Shown piece after piece: positions 1,746-55,988 of a stretch of DNA of 64,000 bases; position 1 is the first letter of the stretch; every line of letters starts with the position of its first letter. The stretch is from Candidatus Scalindua sp. (GTDB lineage: Bacteria; Planctomycetota; Brocadiia; Brocadiales; Scalinduaceae). The notes beneath the pieces are model-generated. The model searched no databases, had not been told where the DNA came from, and was given only the letters and a program-made list of their open reading frames with translations. The stretch lies in the NCBI GenBank assembly GCA_021776915.1, contig JAIQZU010000084.1, positions 1 through 64,000 of the forward strand. Direction: 5' to 3'. Made by a program: the position numbers and the translations under genes.

Positions 1746-4478
1746 ATGGCTTTAAGCTGGAACGAAATAAAAGACAGATCCCTTAAATTCTCCAAAGAAT
1801 GGGCTGATGAAAGCAGAGAACACGCGGAGGCGAAATCGTTCTGGGATGAATTCTTCAATGTTTTTGGAATTTCAAGGAGAAGAGTGGCAACATTTGAAAA
1901 ACCTGTCAAAAAGCTCAACGACAAGTATGGTTTTATTGACCTTTTCTGGAAAGGAAACTTATTAGTTGAGCATAAATCAAAAGGAAAAGATTTAAGCAAA
2001 GCATACTCCCAGGCATTAGATTACTTTAATGGATTAAAGGAGCATGAATTACCTAAATACGTTTTAGTATCCGATTTCGAAAAATTCCGACTATATGATT
2101 TAGAGGAAGGTTCCGAAAACGAATTTCATACAAAGGACTTCCATAAGCATATAAAGCTGTTTGGTTTTATAGCCGGTTATCAAAAAATAACTTACAAAGA
2201 ACAAGATCCAGTAAACATTCAAGCAGCAGAATTAATGGGAAAATTACATGACCAACTAAAGGACAGTGGTTATGAAGGACATCCATTAGAAATATATCTT
2301 GTCCGTTTATTGTTCTGTTTGTTTGCTGACGATACAGGAATATTTGAAAAAGATACTTTCAAGGAATTTGTTGAGATAAAAACGAAGGAAGATGGAAGCG
2401 ATTTAGGCGCTGTTTTAGCTCAGTATTTTCAAGTACTCAATACGCCCAATGAAAAGCGACTAAAAACGCTTGATGAACACTTAAACCAATTCACATATAT
2501 AAACGGAAAGTTATTTGAAGAACATTTACCAATAGCAGCATTTAATTCTGGAATGCGTGAACTTCTTATGGAATGCAACGCATTGGACTGGGGCAAAATA
2601 TCACCTGCAATATTTGGTTCATTATTCCAATCAGTAATGAATCCTCAAGAAAGAAGAAACCTGGGCGCACACTACACTTCTGAAAAAAATATATTAAAGC
2701 TAATAACTCCTTTATTTCTGGATGAATTACATAATGAGTTCAGGAAAGCAAAAGGAAATAAACGAAAGCTACAGGAATTCCATAAAAAACTTGCTTCATT
2801 AAAGTTTCTTGACCCTGCCTGTGGCTGTGGCAACTTTTTGGTAATTACATATCGAGAACTGCGGTTGCTGGAGTTAGAAGTATTACGTGAACTCCACAAA
2901 GGTGGACAAAGAATTCTTAATATTTCTGAAATCATCTGGATTGATGTTGACCAGTTCTATGGAATTGAATGCGAAGAATGGCCAGCGAGGATTGCGGAGG
3001 TAGCCCTCTGGCTCATGGATCATCAAATGAACATGCGCATTTCAGAAGAATTTGGGCAATACTTTGTAAGACTTCCTTTGAAAAAATCAGCTAAAATTGT
3101 TCATGGCAATTCACTTAGGATAGATTGGGAGGAAGTTATTACCAAAAGTGAATTGTCATATATACTCGGTAATCCTCCTTTTGTTGGTTCAAAATTTCAA
3201 AATAAGGAACAACGAGCAGAAATAGCCTCTGTCAGCAACGGAACAAAAGGTGTTGGTATCCTCGACTATGTCACTGGTTGGTACTTTCTTGCTGCTCAGT
3301 ATATTCAGGGTACAGATATTCAAGTTGCCTTTGTTTCTACAAGCTCAATATCTCAAGGTGAACAGGTAGGCGTATTATGGAAAGATATGTTTTCTAAGAA
3401 CGTAAAAATTAATTTTGCTCACAGAGCTTTTCAGTGGAATAGTGAAGCAAGGGGAAAGGCGGCTGTGCACTGCGTCATTATTGGTTTTTCTCTGAAAGAA
3501 AATAAAAAGAAGAAAATCTATGAATATGACGATGTCCGCTCAGAGCCACATGAAATAAATGCATCAAATATAAATGCTTACCTGCTAGATGGTCCCTCCG
3601 TTGTAATTGAAAACAGGCAAAGGCCGCTTTGTAACGTGCCAACTGTCTGCATAGGCAACAAGCCAATTGATAACGGATATTATTTGTTCACTCCTGAAGA
3701 AAAAGAAGCATTTCTGAAAATAGAACCGAAAGCTGCTGAATATTTCAGGCGGTGGGTAGGAGCAAGAGAGTTTCTAAACGGAATAGAAAGATGGTGCCTG
3801 TGGCTCGGTGACTGCTCCCCTGCGGCTCTGAAAAGTATGCCTGCATGTCTTGAAAGAGCAAAAAAAGTGCAGGAATACAGGTCGAAAAGCAAGAGCGCAC
3901 CTACCCGTAAGCTGGCAGCTATTCCAACACGATTTCATGTTGAAAACATGCCAACCGATCATTACTTGATAATACCTGGTGTATCATCAGAGAGGAGAAA
4001 ATATATTCCTATTGGTTTTATGACATCTGATGTTTTGGCAAGTAATTTAGTGAATATATCAGGCAATGCAACTCTCTATCATTTTGGCATACTTGCTTCA
4101 ACAATGCACATGGCATGGATGCGGTACACAGCAGGAAGGCTTGAAAGCCGTTATCGTTATTCAATAGGGCTTGTTTACAATAATTATCCGTGGCCTTCTG
4201 AAGTGCAGGGTAGCCAGAAGGGAGCAGTAGAAAAATTGGCTCAGGCAGTTATTGATGCACGTTCAGCCTTCCCTGACAGTACACTCGCTGACCTATACAA
4301 CCCAATTTCAATACCTGCAAGGCTGACAAAGGCACATGGAGAATTAGACAGGGCTGTTGACAAATGCTACCGCCCTCAGCCATTCACAAATGAAACCGCT
4401 CGTATTGAGTTTCTGTTTGATTTATATAATCAATATACAGCAGGTCTATTCGTTACAAGAAAAAAACAAAAGAAATAA
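1746..4478 (+). CDS. MmeI-type (type IIL) single-chain restriction-modification enzyme
   Basis: A 910-residue protein combining DNA cleavage, N6-adenine methylation and target recognition in one chain. The N-terminus has the nuclease signature D65-x9-E75-x-K77 in FIDLFWKGNLLVEHKSKG, the same spacing as the MmeI PD-(D/E)XK site. A helical linker follows, then methyltransferase motif I (LDPACGCGNF, D356) and the catalytic NPPF motif (N476), with a target-recognition region in the last 300 residues. Length matches the MmeI family (about 900) and no disruption is seen. In this family host protection comes from methylation of one strand by the same protein, so no separate methylase gene is expected; none is present. 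Confidence 0.9.
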   Translation: MALSWNEIKDRSLKFSKEWADESREHAEAKSFWDEFFNVFGISRRRVATFEKPVKKLNDKYGFIDLFWKGNLLVEHKSKGKDLSKAYSQALDYFNGLKEHELPKYVLVSDFEKFRLYDLEEGSENEFHTKDFHKHIKLFGFIAGYQKITYKEQDPVNIQAAELMGKLHDQLKDSGYEGHPLEIYLVRLLFCLFADDTGIFEKDTFKEFVEIKTKEDGSDLGAVLAQYFQVLNTPNEKRLKTLDEHLNQFTYINGKLFEEHLPIAAFNSGMRELLMECNALDWGKISPAIFGSLFQSVMNPQERRNLGAHYTSEKNILKLITPLFLDELHNEFRKAKGNKRKLQEFHKKLASLKFLDPACGCGNFLVITYRELRLLELEVLRELHKGGQRILNISEIIWIDVDQFYGIECEEWPARIAEVALWLMDHQMNMRISEEFGQYFVRLPLKKSAKIVHGNSLRIDWEEVITKSELSYILGNPPFVGSKFQNKEQRAEIASVSNGTKGVGILDYVTGWYFLAAQYIQGTDIQVAFVSTSSISQGEQVGVLWKDMFSKNVKINFAHRAFQWNSEARGKAAVHCVIIGFSLKENKKKKIYEYDDVRSEPHEINASNINAYLLDGPSVVIENRQRPLCNVPTVCIGNKPIDNGYYLFTPEEKEAFLKIEPKAAEYFRRWVGAREFLNGIERWCLWLGDCSPAALKSMPACLERAKKVQEYRSKSKSAPTRKLAAIPTRFHVENMPTDHYLIIPGVSSERRKYIPIGFMTSDVLASNLVNISGNATLYHFGILASTMHMAWMRYTAGRLESRYRYSIGLVYNNYPWPSEVQGSQKGAVEKLAQAVIDARSAFPDSTLADLYNPISIPARLTKAHGELDRAVDKCYRPQPFTNETARIEFLFDLYNQYTAGLFVTRKKQKK

Positions 4479-43681: not shown

Positions 43682-43827
43682 ATTAAGTGATTCGATATTG
43701 TTTATTATTGTAGCCGCTGGCTTCCTGCCCGAATAGGTACAGGCGGGTAGCCTGCGATTTACATCACCTGATGGATTTGCGTAAGTCACGCAACCTGAAG
43801 GATGCGGCTACTCAAATCGCTCAATTA
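43682..43827. mobile_element. MITE family A, copy 1
   Basis: About 146 bases sharing the internal GTAGCCGC...GCGGCTAC core and the right end AAATCGCTCAAT with copies at 46782 and 52842. The left end is decayed. TATTA occurs at both flanks as a possible target duplication. Confidence 0.75.
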
Positions 43828-46292: not shown

Positions 46293-46775
46293 TTGAGAAG
46301 AAGCGACAAAAAAGTTACTAACCGGGAAGAGGTTGAGGAATTATTGTCAAATGCTTTGGTAGGAAGATTGGGAACATGCTTCGATAATATACCGTATATA
46401 ACGCCTGTTAATTTTGTATACGATAAAGATAAAATTTATTTTCATAGCGCACATGAAGGCCGGAAGATTGATAATATAACATTCAATCAACAAGTGTGCT
46501 TTGAGATAGACGAGATTATATCAATTATCCCCGGCAGACGCATGCCATGCGGTTCCACAACTGAGTACAAAAGTGTAATTATATTTGGTGATATAAGGGT
46601 CGTCGATGATAGTGACGAAAAAACCTCTGCCTTGAACAAGCTTATTGAAAAATATGCACCTGAGGCGCCGAGACTTCCCCAGTCTTCAGACGCAGCAAAA
46701 AGAACAAATGTACTCGTAATTGATGTAAAAGAGATGACGGCAAAACAAAGTCCGATTGGTAAGAAAGTTATTTAA
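46293..46775 (+). CDS. Pyridoxamine 5'-phosphate oxidase-like flavin-binding protein
   Basis: A 160-residue split-barrel protein of the PNPOx-like superfamily (NimA/5-nitroimidazole-reductase-like): LVGRLGTCFDNIPYITPVNF, YFHSAHEGRKID, VCFEID and a C-terminal strand. Family members bind FMN, haem or F420; the ligand is unknown here. It is preceded by a short leader containing the palindrome, and followed by two MITE-like elements. Confidence 0.85.
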   Translation: MRRSDKKVTNREEVEELLSNALVGRLGTCFDNIPYITPVNFVYDKDKIYFHSAHEGRKIDNITFNQQVCFEIDEIISIIPGRRMPCGSTTEYKSVIIFGDIRVVDDSDEKTSALNKLIEKYAPEAPRLPQSSDAAKRTNVLVIDVKEMTAKQSPIGKKVI

Positions 46776-46781
46776 GCCTAT

Positions 46782-46900
46782 ATTGAGCGATTTTATATTA
46801 CATGCCGTTGTAGCCGCTGGCTTTAGCCTGCGTTTTTCATCACTCGATGGGTTTACGTAAGTTACGCAACCTCAAGGTTGCGGCTACAAGATCGCTCAAT
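46782..46900. mobile_element. MITE family A, copy 2
   Basis: A 119-base copy with inverted ends ATTGAGCGAT and ATCGCTCAAT. It lacks the GAATAGGTACAGGCGGGTAG segment present in copies 1 and 3. Non-coding. Confidence 0.85.
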
Positions 46901-46952
46901 TTAGGTGTTAAACAAGAGAGCATTCATAAATTGTTGTACAGAGTTGTTTTTC

Positions 46953-48407: not shown

Positions 48408-48506
48408 GATGGGTTCGCTCCGCTTAACCCATCCTACAGAATATACAACACATATAGACCCAATGAGAGTTAGCACGTAGGTTGGGTCAAACGGAGTGGA
48501 CCCAAC
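48408..48506. repeat. Paired-hairpin repeat upstream of trpS
   Basis: Two hairpins, GATGGGTT/AACCCATC and GTTGGGTC/GACCCAAC, are themselves in inverted relation with similar loops (CGCTCCGCTT and AAACGGAGTG). It spans the longer possible trpS start, so that start is rejected. Confidence 0.7.
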
Positions 48507-48523
48507 AGAATTATTTAGAAAAA

Positions 48524-49501
48524 ATGAAAAAACGATTATTCAGTGGCATTCAACCAAGCGGTGAAGTTCATATCGGAAACTATCTGGGTGCAATCAAAAA
48601 CTGGATCAGTCTTCTTGACAAATACGATTGTATCTTCTCAATTGTAGACTACCATGCAATAACGATTGAGTATGATCCCGGTGAAATGCAAAAGAGGATT
48701 ATCAATGCCGCCGCTACAAATATTGCCGCAGGCCTTGACCCTGATCGCTGCATTATATTCGTACAGTCTCAAGTCCCCGAACATACGGAGTTGACGTGGA
48801 TACTTAATACTCTTACGCCTATGGGACATCTTGAGAGGATGACTCAGTTTAAGGATAAGGCGGGGCAGAACGAAAAGAACGTCAATGTCGGACTGTTTGA
48901 CTATCCGGTTCTTCAGACGGCTGATATTTTATTATATAAAGGCTGTGCAGTGCCTGTTGGAGATGACCAGGTACAACACATCGAACTGTCGCGCGAAATA
49001 GCGAGAAAGTTTAACTCGAGATATGGAGAACTGTTCCCCGAACCGCAGCATCTTCTTTCAAGCGCCCCCAGGATCATGGGACTGGACGGTAAGAATAAGA
49101 TGAGCAAGAGCATGAATAATTATATCTCTCTTATCGAAGAGCCTGACGCTATCTGGAAAAAGCTGTCAAGAGCCGTGACGGATGAAAACAGGAAAAGAAG
49201 AGATGATCCCGGAAACCCTGATATTTGTAATGTCTTTACCTTGCACAAATATTTCTCCAAACAATCAGAGATAGATAGGATTAACAAGGAGTGCAGGACC
49301 GCAGAGATAGGCTGTGTTGATTGCAAAAAAATACTTTCAGATAACATGATTAAAGAACTTGCACCGATCAGAGAAGAAAGCCTGGAATTAATCAACAACC
49401 CCGACAGCGTAATAGACGCCCTTAATACCGGCGCTGAGAAATGCAGAAAGATAGCCGGAGAAACTATGAAAGAAGTAAGGTCGTTGATGGGATTGAGATA
49501 A
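48524..49501 (+). CDS. trpS: Tryptophanyl-tRNA synthetase
   Basis: A class I aminoacyl-tRNA synthetase charging tRNA-Trp. From the ATG at 48524 it has 325 residues, starting MKKRLFSGIQPSGEVHIGNY with the HIGH-type HIGN motif. GMxx-like loops follow, with the KMSKS sequence in GKNKMSKSMNNYI. The longer frame from 48482 would begin inside a palindromic repeat and is not used. It has an ordinary length. Confidence 0.95.
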   Translation: MKKRLFSGIQPSGEVHIGNYLGAIKNWISLLDKYDCIFSIVDYHAITIEYDPGEMQKRIINAAATNIAAGLDPDRCIIFVQSQVPEHTELTWILNTLTPMGHLERMTQFKDKAGQNEKNVNVGLFDYPVLQTADILLYKGCAVPVGDDQVQHIELSREIARKFNSRYGELFPEPQHLLSSAPRIMGLDGKNKMSKSMNNYISLIEEPDAIWKKLSRAVTDENRKRRDDPGNPDICNVFTLHKYFSKQSEIDRINKECRTAEIGCVDCKKILSDNMIKELAPIREESLELINNPDSVIDALNTGAEKCRKIAGETMKEVRSLMGLR

Positions 49502-49790: not shown

Positions 49791-50723
49791 ATGTCAGAAC
49801 TCGTCGACAAAGGGTTAAAAGCAAAGCGTGAATCAAAATACGTAGATTTTAAGCGGTCGTTCAATCCTGCATCCGCCGGCAAGTGGTGTGAACTAATCAA
49901 AGATATCATCGCAATGGCTAATAGCGGAGGCGGGGTCATTTTAATTGGGCTGGATAACGGTGGGGTACCGTCGAAAGAGGACGTTCAGCCAGTACTCAAT
50001 ATCGACCACGCAACGCTAGTCGATAAGATTCGTAAGTACACCGGATACCAATTTAGCGACATCGAGATACACGAGGCAAAGAAGAAAGGTGAACAAATAG
50101 CTGTATTCGAAATATCAGGAGTCAAAGTGCCAATAGTGTTTCAAAACGTCGGTACGTATGAGGTTTCGCATAGAAAACAAAAAACGGCATTCTCTTGCGG
50201 AACCGTATATTTTCGCCATGGCGCAAAAAGCGAACCCGGAACGACAGAAGACATCAGGAAGGCAATCGAAAGACAACTGGAAACCATCCGTAGCGAGTGG
50301 CTTGATGGTGTTCGGAAAATTGTTACCGCACCACAAGGTTCCAAGGTCACGGTATTTAGTGGCGAGGTAAAAGAAAGCAAATCACCAGGTGCAACTCCTA
50401 TCAGGCTCGTCGACGACCCGGATGCCCCAGGCTACAGGTTAATAGACCATGACACCACCTATCCGCACCGACAAACCGAATTAGTTGATGTTGTTAACGG
50501 AATGCTCCCAGAAGGGGTAGAAATAAACACTTACGACATCTTAGCTGTACGCCGCACCAATGGAATTGACGGCGACGCACGTTATTGTCATACACCCAAA
50601 TTCGGGAGTCCGCAGTACAGCGATGCATTCGCAAAATGGATAGTGGAAGAACACAAGAAAAAAAGTAATTTCTTCCAGGAAGCACGGGAAAAATACTATG
50701 TGCAAACGCATAGCGATAGCTAA
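49791..50723 (+). CDS. Schlafen/AlbA_2-domain protein
   Basis: A 310-residue protein with an N-terminal AlbA_2 (Schlafen-like) domain: ESKYVDFKRSF with the E..DFK pattern, DIIAMANSGGGVILIGLDNGG, and FRHGAKSEPGT. This region often binds nucleic acid or carries RNase activity. The C-terminal 130 residues (after about 180) have no recognised fold but end in a charged helix. AlbA_2 proteins recur among phage-defence and regulatory genes. Its base usage looks more GC-rich than its neighbours, which together with its setting suggests acquisition. Confidence 0.8.
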   Translation: MSELVDKGLKAKRESKYVDFKRSFNPASAGKWCELIKDIIAMANSGGGVILIGLDNGGVPSKEDVQPVLNIDHATLVDKIRKYTGYQFSDIEIHEAKKKGEQIAVFEISGVKVPIVFQNVGTYEVSHRKQKTAFSCGTVYFRHGAKSEPGTTEDIRKAIERQLETIRSEWLDGVRKIVTAPQGSKVTVFSGEVKESKSPGATPIRLVDDPDAPGYRLIDHDTTYPHRQTELVDVVNGMLPEGVEINTYDILAVRRTNGIDGDARYCHTPKFGSPQYSDAFAKWIVEEHKKKSNFFQEAREKYYVQTHSDS

Positions 50724-50812: not shown

Positions 50813-50864
50813 ATCTTAGAAATCGTTATTGAAGATAGAAGATGAGTGTTTATAAAGAAATTGA
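50813..50864. repeat. Duplicated upstream region of the MFS gene
   Basis: It matches 52799-52841 joined to 53000-53009 (shared ATTGAAGATAGAAGAT). It represents the second copy without the MITE insert and forms the leader of the protease gene. Confidence 0.8.
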
Positions 50865-51920
50865 ATGGTAAAAAATAATGGTAGATTCCTATCTACATCA
50901 ATAATACTGCTAACGTTTGCCCTCCTTCACACCGCGCCAATGTCCGCACAAACACTTCAACCAGAGCACCTTTTTGAGAAGAATCGAGTTATTGCTTCTT
51001 ATGATTTATTTGAGGAAAAGGTAGAGATAGATGACTTTGATGCCGTGAAGGATGCAGTTGCTGACTGGGTCTACCGGGTGGGAGATGAGTGGGGTAAGAA
51101 GGTATTGGGCAGGAGTGACCTCAGAAATAAAAATATTAAGTTTGTTGAGGTGCTTAGGCGGACGGCCAAAGCGACGGCTAAAGTCGCCAAAGGCACAGGT
51201 TTCTATTTGGGGCAGTTTAATGGGTTCCACTTGATAGCAACCAATTATCATGTCCACTTACGATTAGTTAACGAGCCAGAGGATTATAAGGAAATAGAGT
51301 TTCCGTTTCTTGATCTAAGTTTCAATTTTGGGCGAATATTTGGCGCCTGGATGGAGATCGATCTTGCACTCTTTGCTATTAATGTGGAAAGCAAATGGGA
51401 TCGGAAAATATTGCAATCTGTCGCAAGAAATTTTAGTTTTGACCACCCAATCACCAGGAATCAAAAGCTCTTGACGGTTGGATTTGGCCGGGCCAAAAAT
51501 CACTACAGTGATATGGCGGGCACTTGGGATTCGGATTGCAAGGTCTTTTCAGGAGATAATGAATTTAAGATTAAGTATGGACTGGATGAGAAGGATAAAA
51601 GAGCAGGCACCTGGGCCTTTGCAGTCGGATGCGATGCCTCTGACGGCGACTCCGGATCTCCAGTTGTTACCCGATATACCGGGGACATCATTGGTCTTCT
51701 TTGGGGGGTAGCCCCCAAAACCCCTATAGTGCAAAGTTCTCAATCCTTAGACAATATGATCAAAGAGAATAGCCCGGCAATATGGAAGAATCTCAACTAC
51801 GCTGTGCCTGCAGCGAAAATCAAGGAGTTTCTGCTTGAAAAGATTAATTCAGGCGCCATCACAGACAAGGTCGAAAGGAAGACCATCCTGGCCTTTCTTG
51901 GTGTGGATTCAAGTTCCTAA
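50865..51920 (+). CDS. Exported trypsin-like serine protease with captured MFS 5' end
   Basis: A 351-residue chymotrypsin-fold protease. The triad is complete: H129 in ATNYHV, D166 in EIDLALF and S263 in GDSGSPV. Residues 1-29 act as a signal peptide with a plausible cleavage at PMSA-Q. Those first 21 codons are nearly identical to the start of the MFS gene at 53010 (NGRFLSTSI, LLTFA), so the leader and export signal come from a duplicated transporter gene. The mature domain has no visible relation to the transporter. The substrate is unknown. Confidence 0.85.
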   Translation: MVKNNGRFLSTSIILLTFALLHTAPMSAQTLQPEHLFEKNRVIASYDLFEEKVEIDDFDAVKDAVADWVYRVGDEWGKKVLGRSDLRNKNIKFVEVLRRTAKATAKVAKGTGFYLGQFNGFHLIATNYHVHLRLVNEPEDYKEIEFPFLDLSFNFGRIFGAWMEIDLALFAINVESKWDRKILQSVARNFSFDHPITRNQKLLTVGFGRAKNHYSDMAGTWDSDCKVFSGDNEFKIKYGLDEKDKRAGTWAFAVGCDASDGDSGSPVVTRYTGDIIGLLWGVAPKTPIVQSSQSLDNMIKENSPAIWKNLNYAVPAAKIKEFLLEKINSGAITDKVERKTILAFLGVDSSS

Positions 51921-51973
51921 TGGCGTTTTTTAATTCTGAGGTTACCGCTTCTCGCCTTCATTGAAATATTGAA

Positions 51974-52057
51974 GCGGGATTCCTGATTCCGCTTTTGTCC
52001 TACTTTCACACCGCTCTCCATTTAACAATAACACAAGTAATGATTGCTTATGCGTGA
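51974..52057 (+). pseudogene. Internal fragment of a second MFS gene copy
   Basis: Codons 51974-52039 read AGFLIPLLSYF then H, T, A, LHLTITQV, matching 20 of 22 residues of the MFS transporter right after the part borrowed by the protease. A stop follows at 52055. It is the downstream half of the copy that the protease gene split. Confidence 0.85.
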
Positions 52058-52065
52058 AGTCAGGC

Positions 52066-52098
52066 TTGACACAGCTCAGAAATAGAGTACAATTGTAC
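52066..52098 (+). promoter_or_regulatory. Promoter and palindromic operator of the PIN toxin operon
   Basis: TTGACA at 52066-52071, 16 bases, then TACAAT at 52088-52093. The -10 lies inside a perfect 12-base palindrome GTACAATTGTAC (52087-52098), a likely autoregulatory site. The start codon comes only two bases later. Confidence 0.65.
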
Positions 52099-52100
52099 AA

Positions 52101-52490
52101 ATGAAGATTATTGCTGATACAAATGCGTTTCTTGCCGTAGCACTAGAGGAACCGGAAAAGGCAAAAATTATCCAACTTACTAAAGGTCATGATTTGGTAG
52201 CACCGGAAGTGTTACCATTCGAGATTGGGAATGCTTTGACAGCAATGTTAAAAAAACATACTTTAAATACCGACCAGGTGACTTCTGTATGGGATACAGT
52301 GCAGACAATACCAGTCGAATACTTCAGAGTTGACATACCGGCAGCATTGGAATTAGCCGCCAGGTGTAATATCCACGCTTACGATGCATATTTTCTTGAG
52401 TGTGCTATCAGCCTGCGATGTCCATTATTGACTCTTGATCGTCGTTTGAAGGCAGTAGCAGAGAATAACGGTATTAAGATTCAAGAGTAA
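52101..52490 (+). CDS. vapC: PIN-domain toxin (VapC type)
   Basis: VapC toxins are Mg-dependent ribonucleases. The 129 residues hold the acidic PIN residues: D in IIADTNAFLA near residue 6, E in PFEIGNALT, D in AYDAYFLE and D in LLTLDRRL. The toxin gene comes before its antitoxin, the reverse of many vapBC operons. The mRNA may be leaderless, because the -10 box ends seven bases before the ATG and no ribosome binding site is present. Confidence 0.88.
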   Translation: MKIIADTNAFLAVALEEPEKAKIIQLTKGHDLVAPEVLPFEIGNALTAMLKKHTLNTDQVTSVWDTVQTIPVEYFRVDIPAALELAARCNIHAYDAYFLECAISLRCPLLTLDRRLKAVAENNGIKIQE

Positions 52491-52512
52491 AACATAATTT
52501 GGGAGAAGTGTT

Positions 52513-52734
52513 ATGAAAGTATATACGTACTCAGAAGCACGACAGAGGCTATCGGAAGTACTCGATATTGCCCGTAAAGAGAAGGTGATTATCAAAAGAA
52601 GGAAGGGAGAAACTTTCTCTATTATCTACAAGAAACCGACAAAATCTCCTTTTGATGTTACCGGGATAAATACTAAGGCTACTACTCAAGATATTCTTGA
52701 TGCAATACGAGAATCAAGATCAAGGAACGTGTGA
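52513..52734 (+). CDS. Phd/YefM-like antitoxin
   Basis: A 73-residue protein with the Phd/YefM N-terminal DNA-binding pattern (VYTYSEARQRLSEVLDIARK, then VIIKRRKGETFSII) and a C-terminal toxin-binding tail (TTQDILDAIRESRSR). A GGGAGAAG ribosome binding site precedes the start. It follows the PIN toxin by 22 bases and should both neutralise it and bind the palindromic operator. Confidence 0.82.
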   Translation: MKVYTYSEARQRLSEVLDIARKEKVIIKRRKGETFSIIYKKPTKSPFDVTGINTKATTQDILDAIRESRSRNV

Positions 52735-52841
52735 CAATTAGATTCACTAAACCCTCCTTCCGCCGTAGCTCCAGGAGCTGAGTGATCCTTGAACGTTGAT
52801 CTCAGAAATCATTATTGAAGATAGAAGATAAGTAATTATAA

Positions 52842-52994
52842 CCTAAATTGAGCGATTTTATTTTACATGCCGTTGTAGCCGCAGGCTTCCTGCCCGAATA
52901 GGTACAGGCGGGTAGCCTGCGTTTTACATCACCTGATGGATTTGTGTAAGTTACGCAACCTCAAGGTTGCGGCTACAAAATCGCTCAATTTAGA
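52842..52994. mobile_element. MITE family A, copy 3, complete with target duplication
   Basis: A 153-base element with perfect 17-base inverted ends (CTAAATTGAGCGATTTT at 52843-52859 and its inverse at 52977-52993), flanked on both sides by TATAA (52837-52841 and 52995-52999). The paralogous leader at 50813-50864 lacks the element and has one TATAA. Confidence 0.9.
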
Positions 52995-53009
52995 TATAAG
53001 AAAAGTTAA

Positions 53010-54200
53010 ATGATAAAAGACAATGGTAGATTCCTATCTACATCAATAGTCCTGTTAACGTTTGCACACCTCTTTAATGACTTCTATGCCGGTTTTCTGA
53101 TCCCGCTTTTGTCCTATTTCCAGACATCTCTCCATTTAACAATAACACAGGTGTCTGTATTACCCACGGTATTGGCGGTGTTTGGTTCGATCCTGCAGCC
53201 CGTATTCGGCTTTCTCGGTGACAGATTTAATAGGAAACATTTTTTTGTCGTATCCGGCGTCTTATGTTCGGCAATATTCCTGAGCAGCATTTGCTTTGCG
53301 CCAAACTTCATTGTACTGGTCTTAATGCTCATGATCGGGGCATCAGGTGTGGCGGCCTTTCATCCTAATGGAGCAGCAACTGTAGCCGGTTTAAGCCAGA
53401 ACAGGTCGACGCTCCAGATGTCTATCTTCCTTATGGTGGGATGCATAGGGCTGGCCGGAGCGCCATTTGTTATTACGTTGATTGTTTCACTATACGGATT
53501 CAGCAAGTTATGGCTTCTGTCTCTACCAGGAGTAATCCTGGCGTTAATATTGATTAAGATGCCAGGAACTCCCGGGAGTCAAAATAATAATACGAGTCTG
53601 TCAGGCTTGAAAGTACTTTTTGCCAGAACTTCATGGCCGCTGTGGATTATGTTCCTGATAATGTTTATCCGGTCAATAGTCATTACGAGCTTCATGAGTT
53701 TTCTGTCAATACTTTTTACAGAAAAAGGAGTCTCTATGCAGAAGGGCGGAATCGCTATATCCATTTTCCTGGTCAGCGGGAGCATTGGCGGTTTGATAGG
53801 CGGATATCTGGCGGATAGGATAAACAGGAAAATAGTAATAGCGGGTTCCTCAATCTTTGCCTGTCCATTACTTTTGTGGTTTTTAGATTCAAGCGAAACT
53901 CTTTCCATAGTATTGTTAGGCGCAAGTGGTATGGTTATTTTTGCAGCCGCTGCAGTTAATGTATTGATAGTTCAAAGATTATGCCCGGATATGGCCAGCG
54001 CTGTTTCAGGCATTTCGATGGGCCTTGTCTGGGGCACTGCCGGCCTTACGCTTCCCGTAATCGGGCATATCGCTGACCATTACAGTATGACAACGTCGTT
54101 AGGTATTGTAGCATACCTGGCGCCCATAGCAGGACTGTTGGCCTTCCTGCTGCCGGATATCAATAATCCAACTCAACAACAGAGTATTAAGCAATTGTAA
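53010..54200 (+). CDS. MFS transporter, fosmidomycin-resistance (Fsr) type
   Basis: A 396-residue, 12-helix major facilitator. AHLFNDFYAGFLIPLLSYF near residue 20 is typical of the Fsr branch, and the MFS loop FGFLGDRFNRKHFF follows. A second loop GGYLADRINRKIV marks the duplicated half. Fsr proteins export fosmidomycin and perhaps natural phosphonates or toxic metabolites. Its leader carries MITE copy 3, and a broken second copy of its 5' end lies 2 kb upstream. Confidence 0.88.
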   Translation: MIKDNGRFLSTSIVLLTFAHLFNDFYAGFLIPLLSYFQTSLHLTITQVSVLPTVLAVFGSILQPVFGFLGDRFNRKHFFVVSGVLCSAIFLSSICFAPNFIVLVLMLMIGASGVAAFHPNGAATVAGLSQNRSTLQMSIFLMVGCIGLAGAPFVITLIVSLYGFSKLWLLSLPGVILALILIKMPGTPGSQNNNTSLSGLKVLFARTSWPLWIMFLIMFIRSIVITSFMSFLSILFTEKGVSMQKGGIAISIFLVSGSIGGLIGGYLADRINRKIVIAGSSIFACPLLLWFLDSSETLSIVLLGASGMVIFAAAAVNVLIVQRLCPDMASAVSGISMGLVWGTAGLTLPVIGHIADHYSMTTSLGIVAYLAPIAGLLAFLLPDINNPTQQQSIKQL

Positions 54201-54272: not shown

Positions 54273-55988
54273 ATGGATATTTTTATTAAAAACATAGTAG
54301 ATTTATTAAAGGCTGAAATTCCACTGTCTGAGGATGAGATAAAAGGTTTGATAGAGATACCTCCGGACTTAAAGATGGGTGATTTTGCATTTCCATGTTT
54401 TGCTGTTGCGAAACAGCTAAGGAATGCTCCCGGAAAAATATCAAGCGAACTTGCACAAAAACTGGCCGCCAGCGAATTAATAACTGACATTAAGGCCCAT
54501 GGGCCTTACCTAAACTTTTACGTCTCGAAAGAAATGATTTTCAAGACAGTCCTGGATGAGGTCTTTACTGAATCTGATTCTTACGGAAATTCTGACTCTG
54601 GTGTGGGTAAGACGGCAGTAATAGATTACTCTTCGCCGAACATAGCAAAACACCTGGCCGTTCATCATCTCCGTTCGGCAGTAATCGGGAATGCTATTTA
54701 TAACCTTTACAAGACCCTGGGATATAAATGTATAGGCATAAATCATCTGGGAGACTGGGGCACACAATTTGGACAATTAATCGTTGCCTTTAAAAGGTGG
54801 GGACCGGAATTAAAGGATCAGGATTCGATAAAAGATACAGGACTCGATATCAGCAAGCTTAATGAGTTATATGTCAGGTTTCATAAAGAGGCCAGGGACA
54901 ATCCTTCCCTGGAGGAGGAAGCCAGAGATTGGTTTAAGAAGTTGGAGGATGGAAACGAGGAAGCAATAGAAACATGGCAATATTTCAAGGACATTAGTTT
55001 ATCAGAGTTTGAAAGAGTATATGAAAAGTTAGGCATAAAGTTTGATTCGTATGCAGGTGAAAGCTTTTATAACAATATGCTTGATGATACTGTTAATAGA
55101 ATCAAAGATGCCGGACTGTCTGAGATAAGTGAAGAAGCCCTGATAGTTAACCTCGAAAAATACGACATGCCTCCGTGCATCCTGAGAAAGAAGGATGATG
55201 CAAGCCTGTATGCCACCAGGGATATATGTGCTGCCGAATATAGAAAACGTGAGTATGATCTTGATAAGATGATCTACGTTGTTGGTTCAGAACAGAGATT
55301 GCACTTCAAACAATTCTTCAAAGTCCTGGAACTCATGGGATACGAATGGGTAAATGACTGCGTACACGTAGATTTCGGACTGATCAAGTTTAAGGATGGA
55401 AAGATGTCCACGAGAGAGGGCAAGGTTATCCTCCTGGAGGATCTACTGGAAGAATCGTGTAAGATCGCCATGGAAATTATAGAAGGAAAAACCTCTGAGC
55501 TGGAGAATAAGGCAGAAGTGGCAAATGACGTTGGCATCGGCGCTATCATATTTTCTGAACTGAGTACAAAGAGGGTTAAGGATGTAATGTTTGACTGGAA
55601 CGAAATACTCAACTTTGATGGAGAGACCGGCCCATACGTACAATATACACATGCAAGGCTGTGCAGTGTAATAAGAAAGTGTGGCGAAACAGTAACAAAC
55701 GAAATAGATTACGATGTGTTTAAAGAAGATGACGAGCTATTGTTAGTCAAAAAACTTGAGTCCTTCCCATTAACCATAATACGCGCTGCACAACATTGCG
55801 AGCCATCAATACTGAGCAAATACCTTCTCGATCTGTGCAGCACATTCAACAGATTCTATCAGCATCACAGGATTCTTATTGATGATACTGACCTGAAGAA
55901 AGCCAGGATTCTGTTGGTTGATTCAGTCAGGCAGGTGATAAAGAATGGCTTAAGCATTCTGGGCCTCAAAGCGCCAGAGAGGATGTAA
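54273..55988 (+). CDS. argS: Arginyl-tRNA synthetase
   Basis: A class I synthetase of 571 residues. It has an N-terminal Add-1 domain, the HIGH-like AKHLAVHHLRSAVIGN (with His at the second and third family positions), GINHLGDWGTQFG, a KMSTREGKVI in place of KMSKS, and a C-terminal DALR anticodon-binding domain (FNRFYQHHRILI). Normal length, in its own unit before tRNA-fMet. Confidence 0.96.
   Translation: MDIFIKNIVDLLKAEIPLSEDEIKGLIEIPPDLKMGDFAFPCFAVAKQLRNAPGKISSELAQKLAASELITDIKAHGPYLNFYVSKEMIFKTVLDEVFTESDSYGNSDSGVGKTAVIDYSSPNIAKHLAVHHLRSAVIGNAIYNLYKTLGYKCIGINHLGDWGTQFGQLIVAFKRWGPELKDQDSIKDTGLDISKLNELYVRFHKEARDNPSLEEEARDWFKKLEDGNEEAIETWQYFKDISLSEFERVYEKLGIKFDSYAGESFYNNMLDDTVNRIKDAGLSEISEEALIVNLEKYDMPPCILRKKDDASLYATRDICAAEYRKREYDLDKMIYVVGSEQRLHFKQFFKVLELMGYEWVNDCVHVDFGLIKFKDGKMSTREGKVILLEDLLEESCKIAMEIIEGKTSELENKAEVANDVGIGAIIFSELSTKRVKDVMFDWNEILNFDGETGPYVQYTHARLCSVIRKCGETVTNEIDYDVFKEDDELLLVKKLESFPLTIIRAAQHCEPSILSKYLLDLCSTFNRFYQHHRILIDDTDLKKARILLVDSVRQVIKNGLSILGLKAPERM

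Follow-up and report, generated by a model that had tools for sequence, protein, structure and literature searches.

The window analyzed here is a 64-kb stretch of a Candidatus Scalindua genome (G000; the other G-numbers denote the relatives with which it was compared, G001 being Candidatus Scalindua arabica, an anammox planctomycete, G002 another Scalindua, and G013 and G014 members of other genera). Between its trpS and argS genes lies a gene for a putative Trypsin_2 protease that is bordered on both sides by pieces of an MFS transporter gene, and an intact MFS gene stands a short distance downstream. The features are as follows, in window positions:

48482..49501, + strand: trpS (tryptophanyl-tRNA synthetase), which bounds the variable interval on the left; tblastn orthologs in the same position in most of the family; named from its protein sequence
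49791..50723, + strand: cargo gene with a Schlafen AlbA_2 domain (PF04326, E 7e-12) and a weak REase-like C terminus (EC042_2821, E 0.004)
50813..50864, + strand: leader copied from an MFS gene, homologous to the MFS leaders of G000, G002, G003, and G005
50865..51920, + strand: chimeric protease ORF, 351 aa (PF13365 Trypsin_2, E 1.2e-7; 91% amino acid identity to G001; dN/dS 0.24)
50865..50927, + strand: MFS-derived first 21 codons, with half of the first transmembrane helix (54 of 63 nt as in the MFS gene of the window, 56 of 63 as in that of G003)
50940..50951, + strand: candidate signal peptidase site MSA↓Q, after A28, inferred and conserved in both proteases
51192..51698, + strand: Trypsin_2 domain (Pfam match, aa 110 to 278; triad by motif)
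51974..52039, + strand: MFS remnant, codons 27 to 48 (AGFLIPLLSYFHTALHLTITQV; 20 of 22 residues, 85% nt)
52053..52829, + strand: PIN toxin/Phd-YefM antitoxin cassette plus half an MFS leader (PIN PF01850, PhdYeFM PF02604; 87.5% nt identity over 779 bp with L031)
52792..52840, + strand: leader of the intact MFS gene, 5' part, by nucleotide alignment
52840..52997, no strand: REP/MITE-like palindromic element in the MFS leader, with ends CTAAATTGAGCGATTTT and AAAATCGCTCAATTTAG, absent from the protease leader and from the leaders of G001, G003, and G005
53010..54200, + strand: intact MFS transporter (PF07690, E 2e-41); orthologs in 12 relatives, beside argS
54273..55988, + strand: argS, right border; orthologs beside MFS in the loci examined; named from its protein sequence

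The protease-MFS chimera is a real gene fusion at the DNA level. In BLAST comparisons within a sequence set of ~0.2 Mb, the 52 bp before the protease ATG match 53 bp of the MFS leader from position 52799 with 85% identity (E 9e-10), the start of the protease gene aligns with the start of the MFS coding sequence at 85% identity over 74 bp (E 2e-17), and positions 51974 to 52039 match MFS codons 27 to 48 with 85% identity over 65 bp (E 1e-14); in translation, 20 of these 22 residues agree. An earlier note on this DNA had described the leader and first 21 codons of the protease gene as near copies of those of the MFS gene at 53010 and had pointed to a 22-codon scrap of the same gene downstream; nucleotide alignment of the protease region with the MFS region bears out both observations, which lie far above chance. 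The arrangement also supports its proposal that the protease segment split a second copy of the MFS gene: an MFS leader and N terminus lie upstream and MFS codons 27 to 48 downstream. The occurrence of the chimera in S. arabica and an undivided, truncated MFS stub in G002 support it as well. The gap in transporter sequence that it reported between these pieces is likewise present, but it amounts to five codons (MFS codons 22 to 26) and not about six.

Another detail of that account fell away: a shared 10-base word, TTCACACCGC, which had been offered as a possible trace of the event, is a chance resemblance. The S. arabica protease reads TCTACACTACGC at that site, and when neighboring segments of the window are compared in the same way, 26% of the pairs have some 10-mer in common by chance, which together rule out the word as a recombination trace; its second copy is only two changes away from other MFS genes. 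The MFS leader in G000 is interrupted by the ~158-bp palindrome and is thus not collinear with the protease leader; G002 and G003 have an uninterrupted, protease-like leader upstream of the MFS gene, and G005 has part of one. No recognizable Shine-Dalgarno sequence precedes the ATG of either the protease or the MFS gene, and a sigma-70 promoter scan gave no site within the leader; it is possible that the protease borrowed its promoter and ribosome binding site from the MFS gene, as had been suggested.

The same chimera is present in S. arabica, where the encoded protein is 91% identical to that of the window. The homologous block shared by the two genomes runs from 50813, where the MFS leader starts, to ~51984, just inside the MFS remnant, and the flanks differ: in S. 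arabica the chimera lies on its own contig with a different arrangement downstream, and only about the first 13 nt of the MFS remnant match before unrelated sequence with a RAYT/IS200-type repeat begins. Because the blocks are homologous and their flanks differ, one origin for both chimeras is likely. An assembly chimera or a chance similarity might be suspected given that the two genomes are drafts and that one is described as assembled from a metagenome, but the fusion occurs in two species, inside contigs of 212 and 78 kb, in diverged sequence and with different flanks, and the E-values range from 1e-9 to 1e-17. The second species carrying the chimera refutes this explanation, and we regard its probability as close to nil.

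The earlier note had taken the neighboring MFS gene to be the source of the duplicated pieces, which the comparison with relatives does not sustain. The MFS-derived pieces in the window share 84% identity with the MFS gene of the window and 86 to 88% with those of G001, G003, G005, G011, and G013, and in a tree built on 129 bp, a length that affords little power, the 5' ends of both proteases cluster together (support 89/89), apart from the resident MFS copies. These two results disfavor a direct tandem copy of the resident gene; on the sequence comparison, the neighboring MFS gene is best described as a homolog of the donor and not clearly the donor itself. A local birth, in which a tandem duplicate of the window's own MFS gene was split in situ and S. 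arabica received the chimera from this lineage, would account for the adjacency of the protease and MFS copies at an interval where MFS 5' ends are duplicated, and a grouping of the window's protease and remnant with its own MFS gene is not rejected by the AU test (P = 0.20). Set against the identities and the clustering of the protease 5' ends, we consider a local birth unlikely, and the chimera probably spread between species as cargo of the trpS-MFS interval and was not born here from its own neighbor.

Divergence at synonymous sites suggests that the chimera passed between Scalindua species after the species split. The dS of the protease (0.188) is the lowest of 43 G000-G001 ortholog pairs, most of which fall at 0.3 to 0.7, in a set that was taken from selected stretches and includes a few distant paralogs or antisense ORFs overlapping real genes; in a short single gene, such a low value can also reflect chance or codon bias.

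The mature part of the protein matches PF13365 with 32.9 bits, where the curated gathering score is 27.6, and it shares the GTGF, NYHV, DLAL, and GDSGSPV motifs with Trypsin_2 peptidases. From motif context and conservation in both proteases, the catalytic triad is likely H129 (ATNYHVH), D166 (EIDLALF), and S263 (GDSGSP); an AlphaFold model built from the two sequences has a pLDDT of 30, too poor for geometry. Comparison of the codons of the window and S. arabica genes gave an overall dN/dS of 0.24, which indicates that the protease is under purifying selection and functional. Unlike other Trypsin_2 peptidases, it falls into no NCBIfam family and has no counterpart in the PDB, and its one sequence relative in the collections searched is the S. 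arabica protein. The genomes of 98 relatives and 392 Planctomycetota, together with plasmids, phages, viral contigs, and the PDB, yielded no further relative and no source for the mature domain, and the same genome, plasmid, phage, and viral collections contained no protease domain lacking the MFS 5' end. A scan of the genome contigs matched S. arabica alone, with two short, noncatalytic peptide patterns that distant relatives may escape, and a profile search across the family returned weak local matches only.

The MFS-derived fusion probably supplies the export signal of the protease. MFS proteins have a cytoplasmic N terminus, and helix 1 therefore runs from inside to outside, a topology that fits export. 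Only the first half of this helix is kept in the protease, which fits the length of a signal peptide h-region. The proposed signal peptide would comprise an n-region with K3 and R7 and the h-region IILLTFALL (mean hydropathy 3.12), that is, the n-region charge and the core of 7 to 15 residues expected for Sec and signal peptidase I, followed by TAPMSA↓QT. At this candidate cleavage site the Ala at -1 is favorable and the Met at -3 atypical for signal peptidase I, which makes cleavage uncertain, and the protein could instead be held by an uncleaved anchor. The window's protease has Leu where the core MFS copies have His20, which lifts the hydropathy peak from 2.31 to 3.12, whereas the S. arabica protease retains His20 in its h-region.

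These same features bear on whether the fusion is real but its product stays in the cell, either because the MFS codons serve expression only or because translation starts at Met26 and yields a cytoplasmic protease. Met26 is conserved in both proteases, the -3 Met is atypical, and the S. arabica core is the less hydrophobic of the two (2.31 versus 3.12), all of which would suit a nonexported protein; on the other side, codons 1 to 22 are in frame with a dN/dS of about 0.30, like the rest of the gene, albeit from few changes, no ribosome site is seen before Met26, and the gain of Leu for His20 in the window strengthened the h-region. We consider a nonexported product possible but doubtful.

The interval in which the chimera lies is a cargo hot spot in the Scalinduaceae. 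The family gene order is trpS, variable cargo, MFS, and argS; the trpS-MFS gap is 33 bp in G013 and 75 bp in G011, versus 2 to 5 kb of varied cargo in others, where genes for toxin-antitoxin modules and coiled-coil proteins and a gene that looks catalase-like by its sequence are among those present. The AlbA_2 gene at 49791 to 50723 has no ortholog in other trpS-MFS loci, and its product has weak PADLOC matches to PDC-S50 and PDC-S19, which are candidate defense models. Partial copies of the flanking genes accompany the cargo, with trpS 3' ends in G001, G002, and G008 and MFS 5' ends in G000, G001, and G002. Among the latter is an undivided second MFS copy of the kind that the earlier note had suggested seeking in relatives, a stub of codons 1 to 43 near trpS in G002 (C239, positions 3297 to 3425, minus strand).

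Several of these genes appear to have moved. A RelE/antitoxin cassette follows trpS in S. arabica and G008, with a second trpS 3' end of ~46 codons (G001:C76:14200-14337 and G008:C159:17632-17770); it is 90% identical between the two over 663 bp, compared with 81% for the 5' part of trpS, and was thus probably exchanged. The toxin of the S. arabica RelE cassette looks frameshifted. The PIN/antitoxin cassette of the window, together with its half MFS leader, also occurs in G014, with a dS of 0.48 to 0.51 versus 1.1 to 1.9 for trpS, MFS, and argS. The MFS gene itself has a dS of 0.37 between G000 and G013 (G013:C14:20634-21821), compared with 1.8 to 2.2 for its neighbors trpS and argS, which argues that exchange at this locus is not rare; in trees, the G013 MFS is nested in the Scalindua MFS clade and the G013 argS falls outside, and the MFS gene alone appears to have crossed between genera.

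We also considered whether a mobile element, either an integron cassette or an IS200/RAYT-type element, carried the protease into an MFS copy. The window's genome has a strong integron integrase (G000:C80:194128-195072, L106; 490 bits against a cut-off of 265), RAYT-type repeats lie just 3' of both the S. arabica protease and the G002 MFS stub, and a REP-like element sits within the MFS leader of the window. No terminal inverted repeats, target duplications, or attC-like site were seen by eye at the protease junctions, however, and the nearby repeats differ between the window and S. arabica and look secondary, so that transport by a mobile element seems to us decidedly unlikely. The repeat AAGTCTGCTTATGGCTTAACTG was excluded as an attC, since the start of a REP-type transposase-like gene follows one copy and the complete copies form palindromic elements with GGGTCAAGTCTGC/GCAGACTTGACCC ends. 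The repeat beginning GGGTCAAGTCTGCTTATGGCTTAACTG has many copies in Scalindua genomes (L024 and L090 to L105); complete copies of this type are palindromic and about 75 to 80 bp long, and one copy of the repeat precedes the start of a REP-associated tyrosine transposase-like ORF. Further REP/MITE-like copies with CTAAATTGAGCGATTTT ends lie in the window near 43708 to 43826 and 46761 to 46904, and a related element is found upstream of the G002 MFS leader. Integrases above the cut-off are also encoded in G001, G002, G004, G008, G009, G010, G019, and G021, and a literature search combining integron and Scalindua found no study of these integrases.

We think it fairly probable that the protease arose by capture of an MFS 5' end within Scalindua, with Sec export and later exchange between species. 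A Trypsin_2 protease segment would have been inserted into a spare MFS copy in a Scalindua ancestor, replacing codons 22 to 26. The MFS leader and 21 opening codons would thereby have come to head the protease gene in frame, and their Lys/Arg n-region and half of helix 1 would now serve the protease as a Sec signal peptide or an anchor, with transport left to the intact MFS gene. Cargo repeatedly inserted between trpS and MFS would have left spare MFS ends behind, probably because one end of each insert joined by homologous recombination within a flanking gene and the other end illegitimately, and the finished chimera would later have been exchanged between Scalindua species. We infer the order of events, the recombination mechanism, export, and the protease activity of the chimera, the mechanism because partial trpS and MFS ends, which are its products only, adjoin the cargo, and the direction, a protease inserted into an MFS gene, because an MFS remnant lies downstream. 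The events may possibly have run in another order, with insertion into a sole MFS gene that was later restored by an incoming copy.

By analogy, the closest known process appears to be the terminal reassortment of secreted effectors. In type III effectors, as reportedly described by Stavrinides, Ma and Guttman in 2006, a 5' segment with its export signal becomes joined to a new C-terminal domain. In both cases an upstream region and an N-terminal export signal, a probable one in the chimera, stand on a new C-terminal domain beside an intact donor or, for the chimera, a homolog of the donor, and in the chimera the homology to an intact gene (MFS, at 53010) extends through the 5' region into noncoding DNA. 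The cases differ in what is donated, a dedicated type III signal of another effector there and, here, a leader with half of one membrane-spanning helix from a polytopic transporter, and in the route, which is type III for effectors and, by the proposed reuse of the helix, Sec for the protease. A passage of PMC6460904 cites Stavrinides, Ma and Guttman 2006 on terminal reassortment.

Two further processes resemble the trpS-MFS interval as a whole. In displacement arrays, described for effector-immunity modules, remnants of older genes stay beside the new cargo (PMC5361080), much as the gene ends here remain next to new cargo, and in homology-facilitated illegitimate recombination, homology anchors one end of the incoming DNA and the other end joins illegitimately (PMC3240628). 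The former was described for effector-immunity modules and the latter for transformation and conjugation, whereas the trpS-MFS case is read from copies of gene ends. A tentative extension, which we put forward with low confidence, is that the interval acts as a site of gene birth, where cargo repeatedly frees transporter 5' ends (leader and first membrane helix), any domain joined to one would at once be expressed and exported, and the protease, the first functional product recognized, would now move between species by recombination in its MFS-derived flanks.

The chimera shows legibly how an export signal could be acquired by a bacterial protein, since its pieces can be traced: a homolog of the donor gene, a remnant downstream, a stub like the expected intermediate, a second copy in a sister species, and relatives free of cargo. 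The case suggests that new exported proteins can grow from the truncated 5' ends of transporter genes that recombination leaves behind, and such proteins can be searched for systematically.
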